The notes under the pieces were generated by a model that worked only from the letters and a program-made list of their open reading frames with translations, was not told the origin of the DNA and did no database searches. The translations under genes and the position numbers were made by a program. From Geothrix sp. (lineage in GTDB: Bacteria > Acidobacteriota > Holophagae > Holophagales > Holophagaceae), in the NCBI GenBank assembly GCA_023701165.1, contig JAMPXL010000001.1, positions 1 to 17,071 of the forward strand: a stretch of DNA of 17,071 nucleotides, read 5' to 3'. Positions 1,917-10,850 of the stretch are shown here, one piece after another. Position 1 is the stretch's first letter. The number at the start of each line of letters is the position of its first letter.

Positions 1917-2411
1917 ATGTTCATCACCTTTGCCCTCATCACCCTCCTGGGCGCCCTGGGGATGCTGCTGCAGAAGAACGTCGTCGTGGCGGGCCTCTGC
2001 ATGGTGGCCACCTTCTTCGGCGTGGCCGGTCTCTTCGTGCTGCTGGCCAATCCCGTGGCCGCGGCCCTCCAGATCATCGTCTACAGCGGCGCCATCATGG
2101 TGCTGGTGCTCTTCGTGATCATGATGCTGAACAGCCACCAGGAGGAGGAGGCCGCGGCCTCCCGTCCCGTGCAGCGCTGGCTGTCCCTGGCCTTGCTGGC
2201 GGCCCTCGCCTTCGGCGCCGTGAAGCTGGTGCTTTCCTCCGGTGGCCTGAAGGCCCTGGCGGAGAAGGGCGCCGCGATGCCCCAGGCCATGACCCTGCAG
2301 AAGGCGGGCACGGCCCTCTTCGCTGACCATCTGCTGGGCTTCGAGGTGGCGGGCCTGCTGCTGCTGGCGGCCATGATCGGCGCCGTGGCCCTGACTAAGA
2401 GGAACCTGTGA
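1917..2411 (+). CDS. nuoJ: NADH-quinone oxidoreductase subunit J
   Basis: NuoJ is a five-helix membrane subunit of complex I that contributes to the E-channel linking quinone chemistry to proton pumping. The 164-residue product shows the conserved third helix with AALQIIVYSGAIMVLVLFVI (about residues 49-68), followed by MMLNSHQEEE and two more hydrophobic segments. AAGGGAG (1905-1911) lies 5 nt before the ATG. The C-terminus is KRNL and the stop TGA (2409-2411) shares its last A with an ATG, forming a TGATG overlap. In the undisturbed arrangement that ATG would be nuoK's start. Here it opens a 34-codon mini-ORF because an insertion has duplicated the junction. Confidence 0.96.
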   Translation: MFITFALITLLGALGMLLQKNVVVAGLCMVATFFGVAGLFVLLANPVAAALQIIVYSGAIMVLVLFVIMMLNSHQEEEAAASRPVQRWLSLALLAALAFGAVKLVLSSGGLKALAEKGAAMPQAMTLQKAGTALFADHLLGFEVAGLLLLAAMIGAVALTKRNL

Positions 2412-2416
2412 TGAGC
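2399..2416 (+). repeat. 18-bp direct repeat, copy 1 (nuoJ end)
   Basis: The sequence GAGGAACCTGTGATGAGC spans the nuoJ stop codon and the overlapping ATG. An identical copy lies 104 bp downstream at nuoK's true start. The flanking bases differ on both sides, so 18 bp is the exact repeat length. Confidence 0.95.
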
Positions 2417-2515
2417 CAAATCCAGTTGCCTTCGCTTCGGGACTCGGAACGGGCCATCGATCTGACGAGCGTCTCGCGTATCGGCGAAGCCGATACCGAG
2501 AGGAGGAACCTGTGA
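2411..2515 (+). CDS. 34-residue mini-ORF created by the nuoJ/nuoK insertion
   Basis: An ATG overlapping the nuoJ stop (TGATG) opens a frame that crosses the whole insertion and ends at TGA 2513-2515, which itself overlaps the nuoK ATG at 2515. The peptide begins MSQIQLPSLRDSERAIDL and ends RRNL, so its last residues copy the NuoJ C-terminus. I recognise no domain. GAGGA lies 7 nt before the ATG, so ribosomes finishing nuoJ could re-initiate here and again at nuoK. It could be an accidental frame of a repeat element, but the open frame and the double stop/start overlap would keep nuoK translationally coupled. Whether a peptide is made is unknown. Confidence 0.35.
   Translation: MSQIQLPSLRDSERAIDLTSVSRIGEADTERRNL
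2417..2502. mobile_element. palindromic insertion between nuoJ and nuoK (element copy 1)
   Basis: These 86 bp of new sequence sit between the two copies of the 18-bp repeat. Their right half is an imperfect hairpin: TCTCG-CG-TATCGGC (2472-2485), loop GAA, GCCGATA-C-CGAGA (2489-2501). The same hairpin in opposite orientation, with a swapped G-C pair in the stem, occurs at 9564-9594. The likeness may continue about 25 bp past the stem on the left side (reverse complement ATC..ATGG.CCCG). There is no transposase. It resembles a REP-like or other miniature palindromic element; the family name is unknown to me. Confidence 0.65.
2501..2506 (+). promoter_or_regulatory. ribosome binding site of nuoK
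   Basis: AGGAGG lies 8 nt before the ATG at 2515 and directly follows the 3' arm of the palindrome; its first A is the last base of the hairpin. The palindrome may therefore affect access to this site. It supports ATG 2515 as the nuoK start over the adjacent GTG at 2512. Confidence 0.7.
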
Positions 2516-2520
2516 TGAGC
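2503..2520 (+). repeat. 18-bp direct repeat, copy 2 (nuoK start)
   Basis: This is the identical partner of the repeat at the end of nuoJ. It carries the start codon of nuoK. The pair brackets the 86-bp palindromic insertion like a long target duplication. Confidence 0.95.
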
Positions 2521-2844
2521 GGCATGGACGCGATCCTCCACGGCGGCCTCCAGGGGTACCTGGTGGTGGCCCTTCTCCTGTTCGCCCTGGGCCTGGCCAC
2601 GGTGCTGCTGCGCCGGACCCTCCTCCTCCAGTTCATGGGCGTGGAGCTGATGCTCAACGCCGCCAACGTGGCCCTGCTGGCCTTCGCCCGCTTCCGGGGC
2701 GGGGACGCCCAGGCCACGGTGTTCTACCTCTTCATCATCGCCGTGGCCGCCTGCGAGGCGGCCATCGGCCTGGCGCTGGTCATCGGCCTCTTCCGGCATC
2801 GGGACACCACCGACTCGGACCGGGCCGCGAGCCTGAAGCAGTGA
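2515..2844 (+). CDS. nuoK: NADH-quinone oxidoreductase subunit K
   Basis: NuoK is a small three-helix, MrpC-like subunit of the complex I proton path. The 109-residue product (start MSGMDAILHGG) has three hydrophobic segments and the two buried glutamates expected of the family: E44 in GVELMLNAANV and E81 in AACEAAIGLAL. Length is close to the usual 100-110. The neighbouring GTG at 2512 would add one residue, and a second ATG at 2524 is also possible; ATG 2515 has AGGAGG at good distance. The gene ends 7 nt before nuoL. It is displaced from nuoJ by a palindromic insertion that duplicated the nuoJ/nuoK boundary but left nuoK intact. Confidence 0.95.
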   Translation: MSGMDAILHGGLQGYLVVALLLFALGLATVLLRRTLLLQFMGVELMLNAANVALLAFARFRGGDAQATVFYLFIIAVAACEAAIGLALVIGLFRHRDTTDSDRAASLKQ

Positions 2845-2851
2845 GGATGCG

Positions 2852-4756
2852 ATGAACAAGTACTACTGGCTCATTCCGATCCTCCCCCTGCTGGGCGCGG
2901 CCTTCAACGGCCTGCTGGGCAAGCGCGCGGGCAAGGGCGCCGTCACCTTCGTGGGGCTGGGCGTGGTCCTGGGTTCCCTGCTGCTGGCGGCTTCGGCGTT
3001 CCTGGCCATGAAGGCCGCGCCGGACCACCGGCTCATCCTGAACTACGGCGAGTGGATGGCCACGGGCGCTCTCAGCGTGCCCTTCGGCCTGGTCATCGAC
3101 CCCCTCAGCGGCACCATGATGCTCGTCATCACGGGGATCGGCTTCCTCATCCACCTCTACTCCGTGGGCTACATGCACGCGGATGAAGGCTATGCGCGGT
3201 TCTTCAGCTACCTGAACCTCTTCGTCTTCTTCATGCTGACCCTGGTGCTGGGCTCGAGCCTGGCGTTGATGTTCGTGGGCTGGGAGGGCGTGGGGCTCTG
3301 CTCCTACCTGCTCATCGGCTACTACTTCGAAACGGACTTCGCGCCCCAGGCCGGCCTCAAGGCCTTCCTCTTCAACCGCGTGGGCGACCTGGGCGTGTCC
3401 ATCGGCATGCTGGTGCTCTTCGCGGCCTTCGGCACCCTGACGGTCGCCGACATCCTCACCCAGGCCGGGCACCTGGCCCCGGAAGTGGGCTTCGGCGTCC
3501 TCACCTTCGCCACGCTGATGCTCTTCGTGGGCGCCACGGGGAAGAGCGCCCAGCTGCCCCTCTACCTCTGGCTGCCGGACGCCATGGCGGGCCCCACGCC
3601 CGTCAGCGCCCTCATCCACGCGGCCACCATGGTGACCAGCGGCATCTACATGATCTGCCGCCTGGCGCCGGTGTTCACGCTGGCCCCCATCACCATGGAC
3701 GTGGTGGCCTGGGTGGGCGGGGCCACGGCCCTCTTCGCCGCCACCATCGGCCTCTTCCAGCGCGACATCAAGAAGGTGCTGGCCTACTCCACCGTCTCCC
3801 AGCTGGGCTACATGTTCCTGGGCCTGGGCGCGGCGGGCTTCGCCGCGGGCTTCTTCCACGTCTTCACCCACGCCTGGTTCAAGGCCCTCCTCTTCCTCGG
3901 CGCCGGCAGCGTGATCCACGCCATGCACCACGAGCAGGACCTCTTCAAGATGGGCGGCCTCAAGGCCAAGACGAAGGTCACCTTCATCACCATGGTGGCC
4001 GGCACCATCGCCATCATGGGCTTCCCCGGCACCTCGGGCTTCTTCAGCAAGGACGAGATCCTCTACCTGGCCTACCTGAAGTCCCCGGCCCTCTGGGTGG
4101 TCGGCGTCATCGCCGCCTGCTGCACCAGTTTCTACATGTGGCGCCTCATGGCCCTCACCTTCTGGGGCGAGCCCCGGGACCACCACGCCTACGACCACGC
4201 CCACGAAAGCCCCCTGACCATGACGCTGCCGCTCATGGTGCTGGCCCTGGGTTCCCTGCTCTGGGGCTTCTGGGGCGTTCCCGAGGCCTTCGGCGGGCAC
4301 TTCCAGATCGGCGAGTGGCTGAAGCCGGCCCTCACCTTCGGGCAGCTGCACGGCGCCCACGGCCACCACGAGGGTCCGGCGGTGCTGCTGGCGATCATCT
4401 CCACGACCCTGGGCCTGGCCTTCGGCTTCCTGGGCTGGTCGAAGTACAAGAACGGTCCCGCCTGGGAGCTGGCCTTTGCCGCGAAGTTCCCCTTCCTCCA
4501 CGGCCTGCTGCTGAACAAATACTACGTGGACGAGGGCGTGGAGCTCTACATCCTCCGCCCCATCCGCTGGTTCGGCAACGTCCTGTGGAAGCTCTTCGAC
4601 GTGATCATCATCGACGGCGTGGGCGTGAACCTGCCGGGCGCGCTGGCCCGGGTCTTCGGGGACTTCACCGCCCTCTTCCAGACGGGCCGGGTGCGCAACT
4701 ACGCGCTCAGCATGGCGCTGGGGGCCGCGGTCCTCCTCTATGTCTTCCTGAAGTAG
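2852..4756 (+). CDS. nuoL: NADH-quinone oxidoreductase subunit L
   Basis: NuoL is the most distal Mrp-antiporter-like proton-pumping subunit of complex I and carries the long lateral helix. The 634-residue length is typical. Key charged residues are in place: E145 in FVGWEGVGLCSYLL and K231 in GATGKSAQLPLYLWLPDAMA, followed by GPTPVSALIHAATMVTSG. A second antiporter core region, FQRDIKKVLAYSTVSQLGYM, lies near 304-323. The stretch HHAYDHAHESP and the later HGAHGHHEG form His-rich loops in the C-terminal third, before the final helices. GAGGA at 2843-2847 overlaps the nuoK stop and sits 4 nt before the ATG. Stop to nuoM start is 8 nt. Confidence 0.97.
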   Translation: MNKYYWLIPILPLLGAAFNGLLGKRAGKGAVTFVGLGVVLGSLLLAASAFLAMKAAPDHRLILNYGEWMATGALSVPFGLVIDPLSGTMMLVITGIGFLIHLYSVGYMHADEGYARFFSYLNLFVFFMLTLVLGSSLALMFVGWEGVGLCSYLLIGYYFETDFAPQAGLKAFLFNRVGDLGVSIGMLVLFAAFGTLTVADILTQAGHLAPEVGFGVLTFATLMLFVGATGKSAQLPLYLWLPDAMAGPTPVSALIHAATMVTSGIYMICRLAPVFTLAPITMDVVAWVGGATALFAATIGLFQRDIKKVLAYSTVSQLGYMFLGLGAAGFAAGFFHVFTHAWFKALLFLGAGSVIHAMHHEQDLFKMGGLKAKTKVTFITMVAGTIAIMGFPGTSGFFSKDEILYLAYLKSPALWVVGVIAACCTSFYMWRLMALTFWGEPRDHHAYDHAHESPLTMTLPLMVLALGSLLWGFWGVPEAFGGHFQIGEWLKPALTFGQLHGAHGHHEGPAVLLAIISTTLGLAFGFLGWSKYKNGPAWELAFAAKFPFLHGLLLNKYYVDEGVELYILRPIRWFGNVLWKLFDVIIIDGVGVNLPGALARVFGDFTALFQTGRVRNYALSMALGAAVLLYVFLK

Positions 4757-4764
4757 GTGGGGCG

Positions 4765-6366
4765 ATGACCTGGCTGAACCTCCATCCCCTCACCTTCCTG
4801 GTCTTCGCGCCGGCCCTGCTGGGCCTCCTGCTGATGGCCCTGCCGCACGCCCTTGGCAAGCTGGCCCGCATGCTCGGCTTCCTGGGCGCCCTCGCCATCT
4901 TCATCCTCAGCCTGTCCTGGCTGCTGGGGCGCACCCCGAACGCGGGCGGCCTGATCCTGGCGGAGCGGGCTTCCTGGTTCACCCTGGTGGGCCTGCCGGT
5001 GGACTACGCCCTGGCCGTGGACGGCCTGAACCTGTGGCTGGTGATCCTCACCACCTTCCTGGTGCCCCTCACCATGCTGGGCACCTGGAACAGCCTCAAG
5101 GACCGCATCGGCACCTTCGTGGCCATGTTCCTCCTGCTGGAGACGGGCATGCTGGGCGCCTTGGTGGCCCAGGACCTCTTCGTGTTCTACCTGTTCTGGG
5201 AGGCCATGCTCATCCCGATGTACTTCATGATCGGGGTCTGGGGCGGCGACGAGCGCCGCTACGCGGCCAACAAGTTCTTCCTCTACACCCTGAGCGGCTC
5301 GCTGCTCTGGCTGGTGGCGCTGCTCTACCTGGCCAACAAGGCCGGGGGCTTCAACCCGGCCCTCATGGCCCAGGCCGCCTCGGCGCTGCCCTTCGGCGTC
5401 CAGGGCTGGCTGTTCATCGCCTTCGCCGTGGCCTTCGCCATCAAGGTGCCGCTGTTCCCGCTGCATACCTGGCTGCCGGACGCCCACGTGCAGGCGCCCA
5501 CGGCGGGTTCCGTCATCCTGGCAGGCGTGCTGCTGAAGCTGGGCGGGTACGGCTTCATCCGCTTCGCCATCCCCATGTTCCCCCAGGCGGCCATGCACTA
5601 TGCCCAGCCCATCGCGCTGCTGAGCGTCATCGCCATCGTCTACGGGGCCCTGGTGGCCATGGTCCAGCGCGACATCAAGAAGCTGGTGGCCTACTCCTCC
5701 GTGAGCCACATGGGCTTCGTGATGCTGGGCCTCGCCTCCATGACCGTCATCGGCACCCAGGGGGCCATGCTCCAGATGCTCAACCACGGCATCAGCACCG
5801 GCGCGCTCTTCCTGCTGGTGGGCATGCTCTACGACCGGGCCCACACGCGCATGATCGCCGACTTCGGCGGCGTGGCCGTGAAGATGCCCATCTTCACCGC
5901 GTTCTTCCTCATCGTGACGCTGAGCTCCATCGGCCTGCCCCTCACCAACGGATTCGTGGGTGAGTTCTGGATCCTGAACGGCACCTTTGTCTCCGGTTTC
6001 GGCTGGGGCCGCCTCTACGCCTGCCTGGCCACCTCCGGCGTGCTGCTGGGCGCGGTCTACATGCTGTGGATGTTCATGCGGGTCTTCTGGGGCCCCGAGA
6101 ACAAGGACGAGGACAGCGGCACCCACCACCTGCACACGGACCTGAACGCCCGGGAGATCGCGGTGATGCTGCCCCTGGTGGTGCTCATCGTGTGGATGGG
6201 CGTCCATCCGAAGACGTTCATCGCTGCCAGCGAAGCCCCTGTCACTGCGCTGCTCCAGGACATCAAGGCCCCGGCGCCCCGGACCTTCGTCCTGAAGCCC
6301 GCGGTCCATGAAGCTCCGGCGGCCCACGCTCCCGAAGCCCCCGCCGCCCATGAGGTGCACCGATGA
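4765..6366 (+). CDS. nuoM: NADH-quinone oxidoreductase subunit M
   Basis: NuoM is the second antiporter-like proton pump of complex I. From ATG 4765 it has 533 residues. E146 (YLFWEAMLIPMYFMIG) and K227 (FAIKVPLFPLHTWLPDAHV) are the expected buried pair, followed by QAPTAGSVILAGVLLKLGGYG and VQRDIKKLVAYSSVSHMGFV. GGTGGGG lies just before the ATG. The frame is open far upstream through nuoL, so the longer frame is not the gene. The C-terminus carries a hydrophilic tail rich in Ala, Pro, His and Glu (about the last 30 residues, KPAVHEAPAAHAPEAPAAHE then VHR) that most NuoM proteins lack. Its stop overlaps the nuoN start (ATGA). Confidence 0.97.
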   Translation: MTWLNLHPLTFLVFAPALLGLLLMALPHALGKLARMLGFLGALAIFILSLSWLLGRTPNAGGLILAERASWFTLVGLPVDYALAVDGLNLWLVILTTFLVPLTMLGTWNSLKDRIGTFVAMFLLLETGMLGALVAQDLFVFYLFWEAMLIPMYFMIGVWGGDERRYAANKFFLYTLSGSLLWLVALLYLANKAGGFNPALMAQAASALPFGVQGWLFIAFAVAFAIKVPLFPLHTWLPDAHVQAPTAGSVILAGVLLKLGGYGFIRFAIPMFPQAAMHYAQPIALLSVIAIVYGALVAMVQRDIKKLVAYSSVSHMGFVMLGLASMTVIGTQGAMLQMLNHGISTGALFLLVGMLYDRAHTRMIADFGGVAVKMPIFTAFFLIVTLSSIGLPLTNGFVGEFWILNGTFVSGFGWGRLYACLATSGVLLGAVYMLWMFMRVFWGPENKDEDSGTHHLHTDLNAREIAVMLPLVVLIVWMGVHPKTFIAASEAPVTALLQDIKAPAPRTFVLKPAVHEAPAAHAPEAPAAHEVHR

Positions 6367-7862
6367 GCCTCACTCCCAGCCAGTGGGCGGCCCTGCTGCC
6401 GCTGCTCCTCCCGGCCCTGGGCGCCTGCCTGATCCCCCTCATGGCCCTCGACAAGGACCAGGCCACGGCCAAGTGGATCCGCGGCGTCATGTACGGCACG
6501 GCCCTGTTGGCGGTGGCGGCCAGCTTCTGGTACCTGACGGACCTCTGGAAGACCGGCGCCCAGCCCAGCTTCTTCCAGCTGCGCATGGACCGCCTGGCCC
6601 AGTTTTCCGGGATCTTCGTGGTGGTGGCCGCGGCCCTCACCATCCTCCAGAGCTGGGACCACTTCCACCAGGAGGGCTGGGTGAAGGGCGAGACTCTCTC
6701 CCTGCTGCTGTTCTCGGCGACGGGCATGATGCTCTTCACCGCCAGCACCCACTTCGTGACCCTCTTCCTGGGCCTCGAACTCTTCAGCATCCCCCTCTAC
6801 GCCCTGGTGGGCACCGTGCGGGCCCGCCCGGAAAGCGCCGAAGGCGGCATGAAGTACTTCCTCACGGGGGCCGTGGCCTCCAGCTGCTTCCTCATGGGCG
6901 GTGTGCTGATCTATGGCCTGAGCGGCACGCTCGACCTGAGCGCCGCGGCCGGGGTGCTCAAGGCCCAGGGCCTGGCCCTGGATCCGCTGGCGCTCACCGG
7001 GGCGGCCCTCCTGCTGTTGGGCTTCCTCTTCAAGGTCTCCGCGGTGCCCTTCCACCAGTGGACGCCGGACGCCTACGAGGCCTCGCCCCATCCCATCGCG
7101 GGCTTCATGTCCGTGGCCACCAAGGGCGTGGCCTTCATCGCCCTGCTCCGCATCTTCCCCAGCAGCCTCGCGCCCCTGACGGCCGTGGGCGCGAAGATGC
7201 AGGCGGTGGTCGCCGTGCTGGCCGTGGCCACCCTGGTGCTCGGCAACCTCACGGCCCTGGTCCAGTCCAACGTGAAGCGCATGCTGGCCTACTCCAGCAT
7301 CAGCCACGCGGGCTACCTCATGCTGGGCTTCGTGGCGGGCACGCCCGCCGCCCACACCGGCGTGCTGTTCTACCTGGTCATCTACCTCGCCATGAACATG
7401 GGCGCCTTCGGGCTGCTCACGGCTTTCGGCCTGGTGGGCGAGAAGACCACCTTCGAGGATCTGCGCGGCCTGGGCTGGAAGCGGCCCGCCATGGGCTTCG
7501 CCGCGGCCGTGTTCATGCTCAGCCTGGCGGGCATCCCTCCCATGGGCGGCTTCTACGGCAAGTACATGATCTTCCGCGAGCTGGTGGCCACGGGCCACGT
7601 GGGCATGGCCGTTCTGGGCGTGCTGGCGAGCCTGGTGTCCGCCTACTACTACCTGCGCTTCCTGGTGGCCCTCTTCCTCCAGGCCCCCAGCGCCGAGGCC
7701 GAGCGCCTGGCCTCGGACCGTCCGGCGGTCCACGCGCCCCTGGCCGGCGCCACGGTGCTGGTCTGTGCGGCCATCGTCCTGGCAGGCGGTTTCCTCCAGT
7801 TTGCCCTGGTGGACGGCTTCGCCAAGCGGGCCCTGGTGGAAGGCCTCGGCCTGATCCGCTAG
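6363..7862 (+). CDS. nuoN: NADH-quinone oxidoreductase subunit N
   Basis: NuoN is the third antiporter-like proton-pumping subunit of complex I and closes the operon. The 499-residue product has E139 (FLGLELFSIPLYALVG), K224 (LGFLFKVSAVPFHQWTPDAY) and K254 (MSVATKGVAFIALL) in the family positions, and VQSNVKRMLAYSSISHAGYL further on. ATG 6363 overlaps the nuoM stop by 4 nt (ATGA), indicating coupled translation. The C-terminus is short (GLGLIR). No nuo gene follows; a 109-nt spacer leads to the export genes. Confidence 0.97.
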   Translation: MSLTPSQWAALLPLLLPALGACLIPLMALDKDQATAKWIRGVMYGTALLAVAASFWYLTDLWKTGAQPSFFQLRMDRLAQFSGIFVVVAAALTILQSWDHFHQEGWVKGETLSLLLFSATGMMLFTASTHFVTLFLGLELFSIPLYALVGTVRARPESAEGGMKYFLTGAVASSCFLMGGVLIYGLSGTLDLSAAAGVLKAQGLALDPLALTGAALLLLGFLFKVSAVPFHQWTPDAYEASPHPIAGFMSVATKGVAFIALLRIFPSSLAPLTAVGAKMQAVVAVLAVATLVLGNLTALVQSNVKRMLAYSSISHAGYLMLGFVAGTPAAHTGVLFYLVIYLAMNMGAFGLLTAFGLVGEKTTFEDLRGLGWKRPAMGFAAAVFMLSLAGIPPMGGFYGKYMIFRELVATGHVGMAVLGVLASLVSAYYYLRFLVALFLQAPSAEAERLASDRPAVHAPLAGATVLVCAAIVLAGGFLQFALVDGFAKRALVEGLGLIR

Positions 7863-7887
7863 GCCCTGTTTTTCCCACTCAACCGGG

Positions 7888-7926
7888 AACCTTCTGTGGC
7901 GGTCCATACATCGTTATGCGAAGGTT
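7888..7926. repeat. inverted repeat in the nuoN/macA-like spacer
   Basis: AACCTTC (7888-7894) and GAAGGTT (7920-7926) are perfect inverted repeats, with an inner TGTGG/CCAtACA pairing. The spacer is noticeably poorer in GC than the genes around it (CATACATCGTTATGCG) and may hold the promoter of the export genes, although I cannot point to a clean -35/-10 pair. Role unknown. Confidence 0.35.
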
Positions 7927-7933
7927 GAAGGCT

Positions 7934-7952
7934 GGGCCCCGCCCGGCCCTTT
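7934..7952 (+). terminator. weak terminator-like hairpin after nuoN
   Basis: GGGCC (7934-7938), a six-base loop and GGCCC (7945-7949) are followed only by TTT. The stem is short and the T tract weak, so readthrough into the following genes is likely if it works at all. Confidence 0.22.
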
Positions 7953-7971
7953 GAGAGTGGAGCGCGCCGTC

Positions 7972-9516
7972 ATGAAGCGGAATACCTGGATCGGCCTTGG
8001 CATCGGCGTCGCGGTGGTGGCGGGCGGAACCGCCTACGTCCTCACCCGGCCCAAGGACGAGGTGAAGTGGCGCATGGCCAAGCTGGACAAGGGCGGCATC
8101 ACCCAGCGCATCAACGCCACCGGGGCGGTGAGCCCCGTGGTGCAGGTGGCCGTGGGCACGCAGGTGTCGGGCGTCATCTCGGCCCTCTACGTGGACTACA
8201 ACAGCATCGTGAAGAAGGGTCAGCTCATCGCCCAGATCGATCCCACCATCTGGGAGACCCAGCTCAGGGACGCCGAGGCGGGCCTGGAGCGGGCCAAGGC
8301 CACCATGGATGACGCCAAGCGCCAGTACGACCGGGCCAGGCGCCTGGCGGCGGAAAAGCTGCTGTCGGACCAGGACCTGGAAACCCGGCTGGTGGCCCAC
8401 CAGACGTCGCTCGCCAGCTTTGAGAACGCCACGGCCGCCCTGGCCCGGGCCCGGGCCAACCTCGGCTACTGCAACATCACCGCGCCCGTGGACGGCGTGG
8501 TCATTTCGCGCCTGGCGGACGTGGGCCAGACCGTGGCCGCCAGCTTCAGCACGCCGAACCTGTTCCAGATCGCGCAGGACCTGTCGAAGATGAAGGTCCA
8601 GGTCTCCATCGGCGAGTCCGACATCGACGAGGTGAAGGTGGGCCAGCGGGCCATGTTCACCGTGGACAGCCTGCCGGACAAGCAGTTCGCGGCGACCGTG
8701 AGCCTGGTGCGCCAGGAGCCCATCACCACCCAGAATGTGGTGAACTACGTGGTGGAACTCATCGTGCCCAACGAGCCGCTGCCGGGCTCCGAAGAGGGCG
8801 GCCAGGCGGCCCATGGGCGGCCCGGGTCCGCTGAGGCAGGGAAGGGCGCCGGGCCCGAGGCCGCGCCGGATCCCGAGAAGGCCTGGGAGCGCCTGAAGGA
8901 CCGCATGGAGGCCCAGGGCGTCACCAAGGAGCAGTTCCTGAAGCGCTTCAAGGAGCGCATGGCCGGTCAGGCCCAGGGAGCGGCAGGCCGGTCCCGCGGC
9001 ATGGCCGCGACGAACCAGGCCCCGGCCGGCGATCCCAGGGCCCTGGCCCGGGTCCCGGGCGGCGCCAGCCAGCTGGGTGGCCCCAAGTTCATGGGTTCCC
9101 TGGCCCTCCGCTCGGGCATGACCGCCAATGTCACCATCATCACCAACCAGCGCCGGGATGTGATGCGGGTGCCCAACGCCGCCCTGCGCTTCAATCCCGC
9201 GGCCTTCATCAAGGAAGAGAAGAAGACGGAAGGGCCGCGGCTCGGCCAGCCCATGATGATGGGCGGCCCCCGGCCCGGCGCCCAGAGCGGCCCGGGCAGC
9301 CGGGGCGGCGTGGTGGCCAAGCGGGAGGACCGCATCTGGGTGCTGGAGAACGGCAAGCCCAAGGCCCTCGTGGTGAAGGCCGGCATCACGGACGGACAGT
9401 TCACCGAGGTCTCCGGCGAGGGACTCCAGGAGGGCCTGCAGGTCCTCGTCGGCGTCGAGAACACCAAGCAGGCCGCGGGGGCCGCGCCGCTCGGCGGCCC
9501 TGGCGGACGGCGCTAG
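7972..9516 (+). CDS. MacA-like periplasmic adaptor subunit of an efflux system
   Basis: Membrane-fusion proteins of the HlyD/MacA class link an inner-membrane transporter to an outer-membrane channel. The 514-residue product has an N-terminal membrane anchor (about residues 4-24, WIGLGIGVAVVAGGTAYVLT), a split lipoyl domain (GTQVSGVISALYVDYNSIVK near 62-81 and YCNITAPVDGVVISRLADVG near 166-185), a helical hairpin between them, and a barrel domain (VGQRAMFTVDSLPDKQF). An insertion of about 100 residues (about 270-373), rich in Gly, Ala and Pro with one charged amphipathic helix (DPEKAWERLKDRMEAQG), interrupts the barrel between VVELIVPNEP and SLALRSGMTANVTI. A second Gly/Pro/Met-rich loop follows near 414-450. 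Start: ATG 7972 with GTGGAG 10 nt upstream; TTG 7951 would add 7 residues. A permease follows, but no ATPase gene. Confidence 0.9.
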   Translation: MKRNTWIGLGIGVAVVAGGTAYVLTRPKDEVKWRMAKLDKGGITQRINATGAVSPVVQVAVGTQVSGVISALYVDYNSIVKKGQLIAQIDPTIWETQLRDAEAGLERAKATMDDAKRQYDRARRLAAEKLLSDQDLETRLVAHQTSLASFENATAALARARANLGYCNITAPVDGVVISRLADVGQTVAASFSTPNLFQIAQDLSKMKVQVSIGESDIDEVKVGQRAMFTVDSLPDKQFAATVSLVRQEPITTQNVVNYVVELIVPNEPLPGSEEGGQAAHGRPGSAEAGKGAGPEAAPDPEKAWERLKDRMEAQGVTKEQFLKRFKERMAGQAQGAAGRSRGMAATNQAPAGDPRALARVPGGASQLGGPKFMGSLALRSGMTANVTIITNQRRDVMRVPNAALRFNPAAFIKEEKKTEGPRLGQPMMMGGPRPGAQSGPGSRGGVVAKREDRIWVLENGKPKALVVKAGITDGQFTEVSGEGLQEGLQVLVGVENTKQAAGAAPLGGPGGRR

Positions 9517-9529
9517 CCCCGGGGGGTCC

Positions 9530-9622
9530 ATGCGATTCCTGGAATTCATCAAACTGGCCTTGTTCTCGGTATCGCCTTACGGCGATACGCGAGACGCCGT
9601 TGTAATCTCATGGGCCCGGTAG
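9530..9622 (+). pseudogene. broken or duplicated start of a MacB-type permease gene (30 codons)
   Basis: ATG 9530, with GGGGGG just upstream, begins MRFLEFIKLALFS, nearly the same peptide as the start of the intact permease 103 bp downstream (VALLEFLKLALFA). The frame then runs into the palindrome and stops at TAG 9620-9622 (tail VSPYGDTRDAVVISWAR). The two gene starts agree in protein but differ at many bases, mostly in synonymous positions. This is therefore either the remnant of a paralogous permease removed by a deletion or an old duplication of the gene start. It may still be translated and feed ribosomes to the GTG 10 nt after its stop. Confidence 0.5.
9564..9594. mobile_element. palindromic element copy 2, between the adaptor and permease genes
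   Basis: The hairpin is TCTCG-G-TATCGCC (9564-9576), loop TTAC, GGCGATA-CG-CGAGA (9581-9594). It matches the reverse complement of the nuoJ/nuoK palindrome, including the asymmetric bulge (one base on one side, two on the other). The GC pair next to the loop is inverted in both arms, so pairing is kept. Likeness may run on to about 9620 (ATC..ATGGgCCCG). The element boundaries are not certain. Confidence 0.65.
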
Positions 9623-9632
9623 GGGGTGGATC

Positions 9633-10850
9633 GTGGCTCTACTTGAGTTCCTGAAACTTGCCCTTTTCGCCATCACCCGGAACAAGATGCGGGCCTTCCT
9701 CACCATGCTCGGCATCATCGTGGGCGTGGGGGCGGTCATCGCCATGATCGGCATCGGCGAGGGATCCAAGCGCGCCTCCATCGCCCTCATCCAGAACATG
9801 GGCTCCAACATGCTGACCATCTTCCCGGGCAGCGGCGGAAACCGGTTCGGGCCCTCGGCCATGGGCAGCGCCGACATCCTGCTGGAAAGCGATGTGCCCC
9901 TGATCCAGCAGGAGCTCGCCCAGAGCAGCGTGGTGGCCGCCAGCGCCCATGTGCAGACGACGCGCCCCGTCATCTACCAGAACAGCAACTACGTGACCCA
10001 GATCCAGGGCACGGGCCCCGAGTTCCTCCAGATCCGCGGCTGGGAGGTGGAGAGCGGACGGTTCTTCACGGACACGGAAGTGCGCGGCATGGCCAAGGTC
10101 TGCGTCATCGGCCAGACCGTGAAGGACAACCTCTTCCCCAACGGCGAGGATCCCGTGGGCCAGACCGTCCGCGTGGGCGCGCTGCCCTTCCAGGTGGTGG
10201 GCGTGCTGGAGAAGAAGGGCGCCGGCATGTGGGGCGACCAGGATGACCTCATCGTGGGGCCCTACACCACGGTCATGCGCAAGATCATGGGCCGCGACAA
10301 GATCCAGCGCATCATGGTGAGCGCCCAGGAGGGCAAGGCGGAGCTGGCCGAGGCGGAAGTCACCGCGCTGCTGCGTCAGCGCATGAAAGTCGCCCCCAAG
10401 GACGACAACCCCTTCCAGATCCGCAAGCAGGACGACATCGTGCAGATGCAGAGCCAGCAGGCGGGCATCCTCACGGCCCTGCTCGCCGTGGCCGCGAGCA
10501 TCTCCCTGGTGGTGGGCGGCATCGGCATCTCCAACATCATGCTGGTGAGCGTCACTGAGCGCACCCGGGAGATCGGCATCCGCCGCGCCCTGGGCGCCAC
10601 CCAGCGCAGCATCCTCTGGCAGTTCCTCATCGAGGCGGTGGTGCTGTCCGTCTTCGGCGGCCTCATCGGCATCGCCTTCGCCTATTCAGCCGTCTTCATC
10701 CTCCAGAAGTTCCAGGTGCCCGCCATCACTGAATCCTGGGCCGTGGTCCTGGGGCTGGGCTTCTCCGGGGTCGTCGGTGTGGCGGCGGGTTTCCTGCCCG
10801 CGGTGAAGGCCGCGAAGCTGAATGTCATCGACGCCCTGAGATACGAGTGA
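9633..10850 (+). CDS. MacB/FtsX-type ABC transporter permease
   Basis: The 405-residue protein has the architecture of a stand-alone MacB-type permease. There is a first membrane helix within about residues 22-42 (AFLTMLGIIVGVGAVIAMIG), a large periplasmic MacB core domain (about 43-275), and three C-terminal helices of the FtsX domain starting at about 278. The segment between the first two of these reads SNIMLVSVTERTREIGIRRA, LGATQRSILWQFLIEA, a signature of the family. The end is PAVKAAKLNVIDALRYE. There are no Walker A or signature motifs, so the ATPase must be another protein. GTG 9633 is the start, preceded by AGGGGGTGG. It would act with the MacA-like adaptor in ATP-driven export or mechanotransmission; the substrate is unknown. 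Its stop is followed by a palindromic insertion. Confidence 0.92.
   Translation: MALLEFLKLALFAITRNKMRAFLTMLGIIVGVGAVIAMIGIGEGSKRASIALIQNMGSNMLTIFPGSGGNRFGPSAMGSADILLESDVPLIQQELAQSSVVAASAHVQTTRPVIYQNSNYVTQIQGTGPEFLQIRGWEVESGRFFTDTEVRGMAKVCVIGQTVKDNLFPNGEDPVGQTVRVGALPFQVVGVLEKKGAGMWGDQDDLIVGPYTTVMRKIMGRDKIQRIMVSAQEGKAELAEAEVTALLRQRMKVAPKDDNPFQIRKQDDIVQMQSQQAGILTALLAVAASISLVVGGIGISNIMLVSVTERTREIGIRRALGATQRSILWQFLIEAVVLSVFGGLIGIAFAYSAVFILQKFQVPAITESWAVVLGLGFSGVVGVAAGFLPAVKAAKLNVIDALRYE
10822..10850 (+). repeat. 29-bp direct repeat, copy 1 (permease end)
   Basis: The last nine codons of the permease with its stop, from ATGTCATCGACG to ATACGAGTGA, recur without a mismatch 122 bp downstream. Bases flanking the two copies differ. 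Confidence 0.95.

Follow-up and report, generated by a model that had tools for sequence, protein, structure and literature searches.

How did the same hairpin come to stand at two operon junctions of one contig, once in each orientation, and what kind of element is it? The window, i.e. the whole stretch of DNA that we analysed, comprises 17,071 nt of a contig from a draft genome (1.74 Mb in 361 contigs, 58% complete) of Geothrix, family Holophagaceae; Geothrix paludis and Geothrix rubra are among the named relatives found with its NuoN protein. A sequence-only reading had described the two hairpins as copies of a dispersed palindromic element whose folding matters, possibly a REP-like sequence moved by a RAYT transposase or a member of another miniature palindromic family. 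Both hairpins are found where that reading had placed them, at 2472-2501 on the forward strand (TCTCGCGTATCGGCGAAGCCGATACCGAGA) and at 9564-9594 (reverse complement, TCTCGCGTATCGCCGTAAGGCGATACCGAGA), and the loop-adjacent pairing is exchanged as it had described, GGC/GCC in one hairpin and GCC/GGC in the other. We designate the family H; its 32-nt consensus is GTCTCGCGTATC-nnn-loop-nnn-GATACCGAGAR. Folded as DNA, the window hairpins have stems of 13 bp, with energies of -12.4 and -13.5 kcal/mol; for neither of them did any of 200 shuffles fold as well. The unequal bulge reported earlier, C on one side versus CG on the other, is indeed a bulge, but in the actual fold it consists of one unpaired C in the 5' arm of the stem (TCTCG-C-GTATC / GATAC-CGAGA).

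The role ascribed to folding gained support from a set of 45 hand-picked H forms, in which the stem pairs beside the loop covary: we observed 36 two-sided cells versus 13.0 in shuffles, a value reached by none of 500 shuffles, with 97.1% of the cells in the H stem being paired. Beside the C-G pair closing the invariant TATC/GATA, two pairs had two-sided changes in 16 and 17 of the 45 forms, as had an outer stem pair in 3 of 45; the number of pairs with two-sided change, three, is not unusual in comparison with shuffles (117/500). Invariance of GCGTATC and GATACC is uninformative, since the retrieval pattern had fixed both. A T run is absent from H, and no match to Rfam at the gathering score was found in the window and 10 loci. 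Both window hairpins are crossed by short open frames (2411-2515, 34 codons, and 9530-9622, 30 codons), as the frame concerned meets no stop within H; a comparable frame occurs in Geothrix rubra (L135; L and G numbers denote our loci and genomes), as well as in L124 and L138.

With a covariance model of the 45 forms (E ≤ 0.001) H was detected in 70 of 77 Holophagaceae genomes, in all 47 genomes of Geothrix and in none of 16 genomes from other families of the same class. Among the genomes searched, H is confined to Holophagaceae. Per Geothrix genome there were 3-52 matches, which are upper figures as a palindrome can match both strands; the window's own genome had 17 matches at 13 distinct places (E ≤ 0.01). 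The family is therefore dispersed, as had been supposed, and the tens of copies that the sequence-only reading had anticipated do occur in some genomes (up to 52 matches, both strands counted). Three genomes (G029, G034 and G105) have ∼50 matches each, clearly more than the others. Of 100 genomes, 56 contained a match to the core pattern: 45/47 from Geothrix, 8/14 from other Holophagaceae genera and 3/39 from outside the family; the reversed pattern gave one match in the same 100. The three matches outside the family (L009-L011) were not H-like, and neither was one match inside Geothrix (L012). A lower-GC genome of the family, G057, has H-like palindromes in tight inverted clusters (L282, L283); some of its H-like sites lie ∼1.7 kb apart around a gene that by eye resembles an ATPase gene, and this genome differs in composition and context. 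In a viral collection H was found on a single contig (L288:6260-6294), and blastn of H against phages and plasmids produced only weak matches, with a best E-value of 0.7 or above among the matches listed.

The more telling feature had been overlooked in the earlier reading: both window hairpins stand between two copies of the end of a neighbouring gene (Table 1).

Table 1. Features of the two H loci in the window
Feature	Positions	Strand	Basis
Hairpin H copy 1, nuoJ/nuoK junction	2471..2502	+	Sequence, fold, 55.1 bits (covariance model)
Upstream copy of X (nuoJ end and TGATGAGC)	2399..2416	+	18 nt identical to 2503-2520; starts 72 nt before H
Segment S, between X and H	2417..2470	+	By-eye alignment with S of G. 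rubra L135
Downstream copy of X, right after H, into nuoK	2503..2520	+	H-free site in L127
Hairpin H copy 2, efflux adaptor gene/macB	9563..9595	-	Sequence, fold, 51.4 bits (covariance model)
Displaced macB start (MRFLEFIKLAL...), 3' of H in H's orientation	9530..9562	-	Distance 69, score 11
macB start in use (GTG at 9633, MALLEFLKLALF) and leader, 5' of H in H's orientation	9596..9665	-	Sequence, relatives

To assess how general this arrangement is, we called a duplication wherever a direct repeat with a score of at least 12 started within 2 nt of the end of H. From 192 distinct H copies (four non-H loci removed) 11 were dropped for short flanks, leaving 181. A direct repeat right after H was present in 105 of these, its partner starting 69-78 nt upstream of H in 86 cases and at distances of 35-37 (3 copies), 104-107 (3, in arrays), 120-127 (9) and 138-146 nt (4) in others. 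When flanks were re-paired between different copies, 9 of 543 pairs scored; as most did so at the same distances, they probably join copies of one and the same locus. At random places free of H the score was reached in 11 of 600, the distances being scattered. In the window, the nuoJ/K copy is among the 105 (18/18 nt). Its segment S does not resemble nuoK, so that a duplication of the full 72 bp at this junction is something we infer. The macB copy fell below the cut-off and was left uncounted; its two starts are plainly alike as protein (MRFLEFIKLALF versus MALLEFLKLALF), and native macB starts shaped like the displaced one exist in L125 and L129. Of the 12 places in the window's own genome that have enough flank, 6 were scored as duplicated.

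Grouped by the sequence that is duplicated, the 105 copies make up 35 sets, most of which are starts or ends of genes; other genera are represented too. A nearly fresh case is L220, where 70 of 72 bases are identical across the whole duplication around a single H, as would be expected for a young insertion; whole-duplication identities were 93% in L229, 89% in L043 and 88% in L096. Among copies with a single H the duplicates are <85% alike in 35 of 41, hence a full-length duplication is directly visible in few. On the 5' side of H the duplicated stretch covers a Pfam-recognised gene start or end in 26 of 31 loci, the other five having no match over the cut-off; starts include those of polA, uppS, folP, macB, cydB and a larB-like gene, and ends those of rpsT, efp, NFACT, nuoJ, a biotinyl-domain gene, adenosine deaminase and thiC. 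A rule that the gene always lies 5' of H fails, since among the 29 loci that have a frame on the right, 10 have a Pfam-recognised gene (nuoK, cydA and others) reaching into the duplicated stretch on the 3' side; a preference for the gene on the left of H remains. The gene end lies 13-67 nt away from the junction at a spacing of ∼72, ∼80-118 nt at 120-138 and 16 nt at 36; at every locus with a nameable gene the duplication exceeds the length needed to restore that gene.

The junction itself carries a motif, A-D-R-A-N-G. In 28 representative loci (spacing 70-76, intact side) position -2 was A and position +1 was R in all 28, position -1 was A, G or T and never C, A occupied +2 in 21 and G occupied +4 in 24; three positions ahead of H the base was G in 22. 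Taking all distance classes together and leaving out copies that follow another H, 80 of 82 have A at -2; these copies are not independent. A makes up 21% of bases in the flanks. We also looked for a rule of wider microhomology, reaching further than the lone A at -2, and found no support for one.

Relatives that have the same junctions without H were found at three loci, in agreement with the earlier suggestion that copies would be absent at orthologous sites. At nuoJ/K, H is absent from 14 of 15 loci with both genes and present only in G. rubra (L135); six further loci had one or both flanks missing. At macB, 16 of 19 loci have no H, the exceptions being L124, L138 (two copies) and L144 from another genus. 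Among the best 30 Geothrix loci for NFACT, 15 have H 69-71 nt after the start of the motif, 13 have none and two were unscorable; here the query contained H, which favoured loci with H. In L135 the copy beside nuoK resembles the H-free sites of L136-L138, and therefore the other copy and S are the newcomers at this site.

On balance, we favour the view that H inserts site-specifically by means of a putative mover, with a target duplication of ∼72 bp that rebuilds the interrupted gene end. We are likewise inclined to regard H as a short mobile hairpin, the duplication flanking it being most often 70-76 bp long. A candidate enzyme would cut within the motif on one strand and, ∼72 bp downstream, on the opposite strand; a copy of the hairpin would be joined in and both gaps repaired, which would produce a 32-bp insert flanked by a ∼72-bp target duplication. 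With the first cut near a gene start or end, the duplication would restore the gene and leave a dead partial copy beyond H, making the insertion harmless. Motif, constant insert and preferred spacing, taken together, would argue for an enzyme cutting twice. Against this view stand the searches described below, in which no mover was found, the 76 of 181 copies that have no duplication, the low similarity of the duplicates in most single-H copies, and the spacing, which is not one fixed value, as 35-37, 104-107, 120-127 and 138-146 also occur. Subsequently, alleles with H may pass between species by ordinary homologous recombination; such interspecies spread is likely, because S is alike across species at one locus (macB in the window, L124 and L138; also NFACT) and the outer copy is local. 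Recombination of H alleles between species would also explain why duplicates often diverge at silent sites and outside the gene end; recombination between duplicate copies may remove H.

We tentatively suggest that H might even be the footprint of an undescribed class of mobile DNA, characterised by a ∼30-nt hairpin, two strand cuts ∼72 bp apart with the first at A-D-R-A-N-G, and a gene end copied so that the gene is left whole. If a hairpin of 32 bp does create a duplication of ∼72 bp at a defined motif, an undescribed enzyme or repair route would be required, and H would show selfish DNA entering gene ends without harming the gene. Among the papers listed in our literature searches, judged by their titles and the openings of their abstracts, no description of H was found.

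Tandem arrays of H were seen with 68-, 103-107- and ∼157-bp periods; their units, of 36, 71-75 or ∼125 bp, are copies of the adjacent gene end. The nearest architecture that we found is that of the dRS3/RS mosaics of Neisseria, in which, according to PMC3898611, a palindrome alternates with 30-160-bp units in intergenic arrays; the array-forming subset of H matches this. The same source gives dRS3 as ATTCCC(N8)GGGAAT, with almost 700 copies, a target of the integrase of phage Nf1. H does not match the dRS3 consensus and differs in that its units are copies of an adjacent gene end. If the mechanism proposed for H is true, repeated rounds of insertion would generate alternating arrays of palindromes and units; H would thus offer a testable origin for such arrays, and the process could also explain the Neisseria mosaics. 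One array, L045 (G006:C7:97800-99100), follows the end of an adenosine deaminase gene; its six H copies recur every 68-71 bp, and it includes the spacing class 35-36.

Other known repeats share some of these properties. Mycobacterial MIRUs may resemble H in their settings, being small repeats found in operons where the stop of one gene overlaps the start of the next. Leaving aside the longest cases, given next, known insertions that copy their target copy a few bases. MITEs and insertion sequences resemble H in inserting with a direct target duplication; the longest duplications that we found for insertion sequences (PMC10132070) are the 16-28 bp of the IS1202 group, whereas that of H is ∼72 bp, with no known transposase. 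In comparison with MITEs, the duplication of H is ∼72 bp rather than short (2-10 bp), and H consists almost entirely of its repeat arms. MITE-like elements with ends of their own enclose some of the H copies, and no parent insertion sequence with H at its ends was found. REP/REPIN sequences (PMC3733652) are like H in being dispersed intergenic palindromes of 20-40 bp with a bulged stem, compensatory changes and a few inverted pairs; CGTC-tagged palindromes likewise have no dedicated transposase. H differs from REPs in having a long duplication and a target motif (the word duplication is absent from the main text of PMC3733652), in a lower number of copies per genome than is usual for REPs, and in its tag: GTAG is missing, and C precedes GTC (GYC) in only 3 of 28 loci, so the CGTC tag is not that of H. 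The spread of REP-like palindromes is itself still poorly understood, according to the abstract of PMC8266576.

Several explanations compete with insertion of a mobile hairpin. H could be an RNA or DNA hairpin selected at gene ends, as a terminator, an mRNA stabiliser or a protein site, with the duplications arising as a by-product of interspecies exchange. Its kept stem pairing and its presence at the same genes in several genera (uppS, rpsT, nuoJ, macB, NFACT) speak for such selection, but H also occurs upstream of gene starts in reversed orientation (polA, uppS, macB) and inside other repeats, many relatives have the same junction without it, and it has no T run; we regard selection as an unlikely explanation. 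Slippage or another kind of tandem duplication might have made the gene-end duplicates, H being a captured filler or the mark of a fragile hairpin. Hairpins stall replication, and the tandem arrays with the periods given above would suit this origin; still, it predicts neither a constant, covarying H exactly at the junction nor a near-invariant motif, and we consider it rather improbable.

The mobile unit could instead be a whole block of ∼104 bp (gene end, S and H) that travels either in the form of a small circle or by transformation and inserts by gene-end homology. This would fit both the likeness of S between species (macB in the window, L124 and L138; NFACT) and the downstream copy being like the local H-free form (L135 on the nuoK side versus L136-L138). 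However, homologous exchange covers spread at one locus and not 35 gene ends with the same hairpin and motif, which makes the block a doubtful candidate.

Movement by RAYT, one of the options named in the sequence-only reading, is now strongly disfavoured. H does recall REPs in its size, in the bulge of its stem and in occasional inverted pairs (L117, L093), but Y1 transposases (PF01797) are present in only 5 of 47 Geothrix genomes and absent from the window's own genome, none of the 15 loci around them contains H, the GTAG tag is absent, and no duplication of ∼72 bp is known from the insertion of REPs. Weakest of all, and very hard to credit, is off-target CRISPR adaptation, in which Cas1-Cas2 would have inserted H in the manner of a 32-bp spacer: its product, repeat-32 bp-repeat, has the same topology as the H loci, but the insert is constant, the duplication is too long, the units between H copies are local gene-end copies rather than the foreign spacers of a CRISPR array, and Cas1 was found in 5 of 47 Geothrix genomes with no H near the four Cas1 loci fetched. 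Reverse transcriptase genes, present in 15 of 47 Geothrix genomes (14 over the cut-off) and absent from the window's own genome, had H in none of 21 loci; altogether H was near RAYT, Cas1 or reverse transcriptase genes in 0 of 40 loci (15 + 4 + 21), and none of these three candidate movers is widespread. The closed genome G033, with 12 H matches, has none of the three, and in G044 the 6.5 kb separating two H copies (L219) contain no ORF recognisable by eye as a transposase.

Duplication was not seen in 76 of the 181 copies. TT directly precedes H in 44 of these, and many are embedded in heptamer palindromes (CACCAAG...CTTGGTG) or in elements that resemble MITEs, often after GATATCAGTTT or similar; under insertion of a mobile hairpin, such copies may be older insertions or passengers. 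The MITE-like elements that contain H belong to several unrelated kinds (L020, L036, L013, L117, L103 and others). Long heptamer palindromes, CACCAAGACACCAAG...CTTGGTGTCTTGGTG, have H in one arm in L067, L026, L079 and L260, the last being in the window's own genome (C300), and in such copies H frequently has GACACC or GGCACC on its 3' side, close to the target motif.
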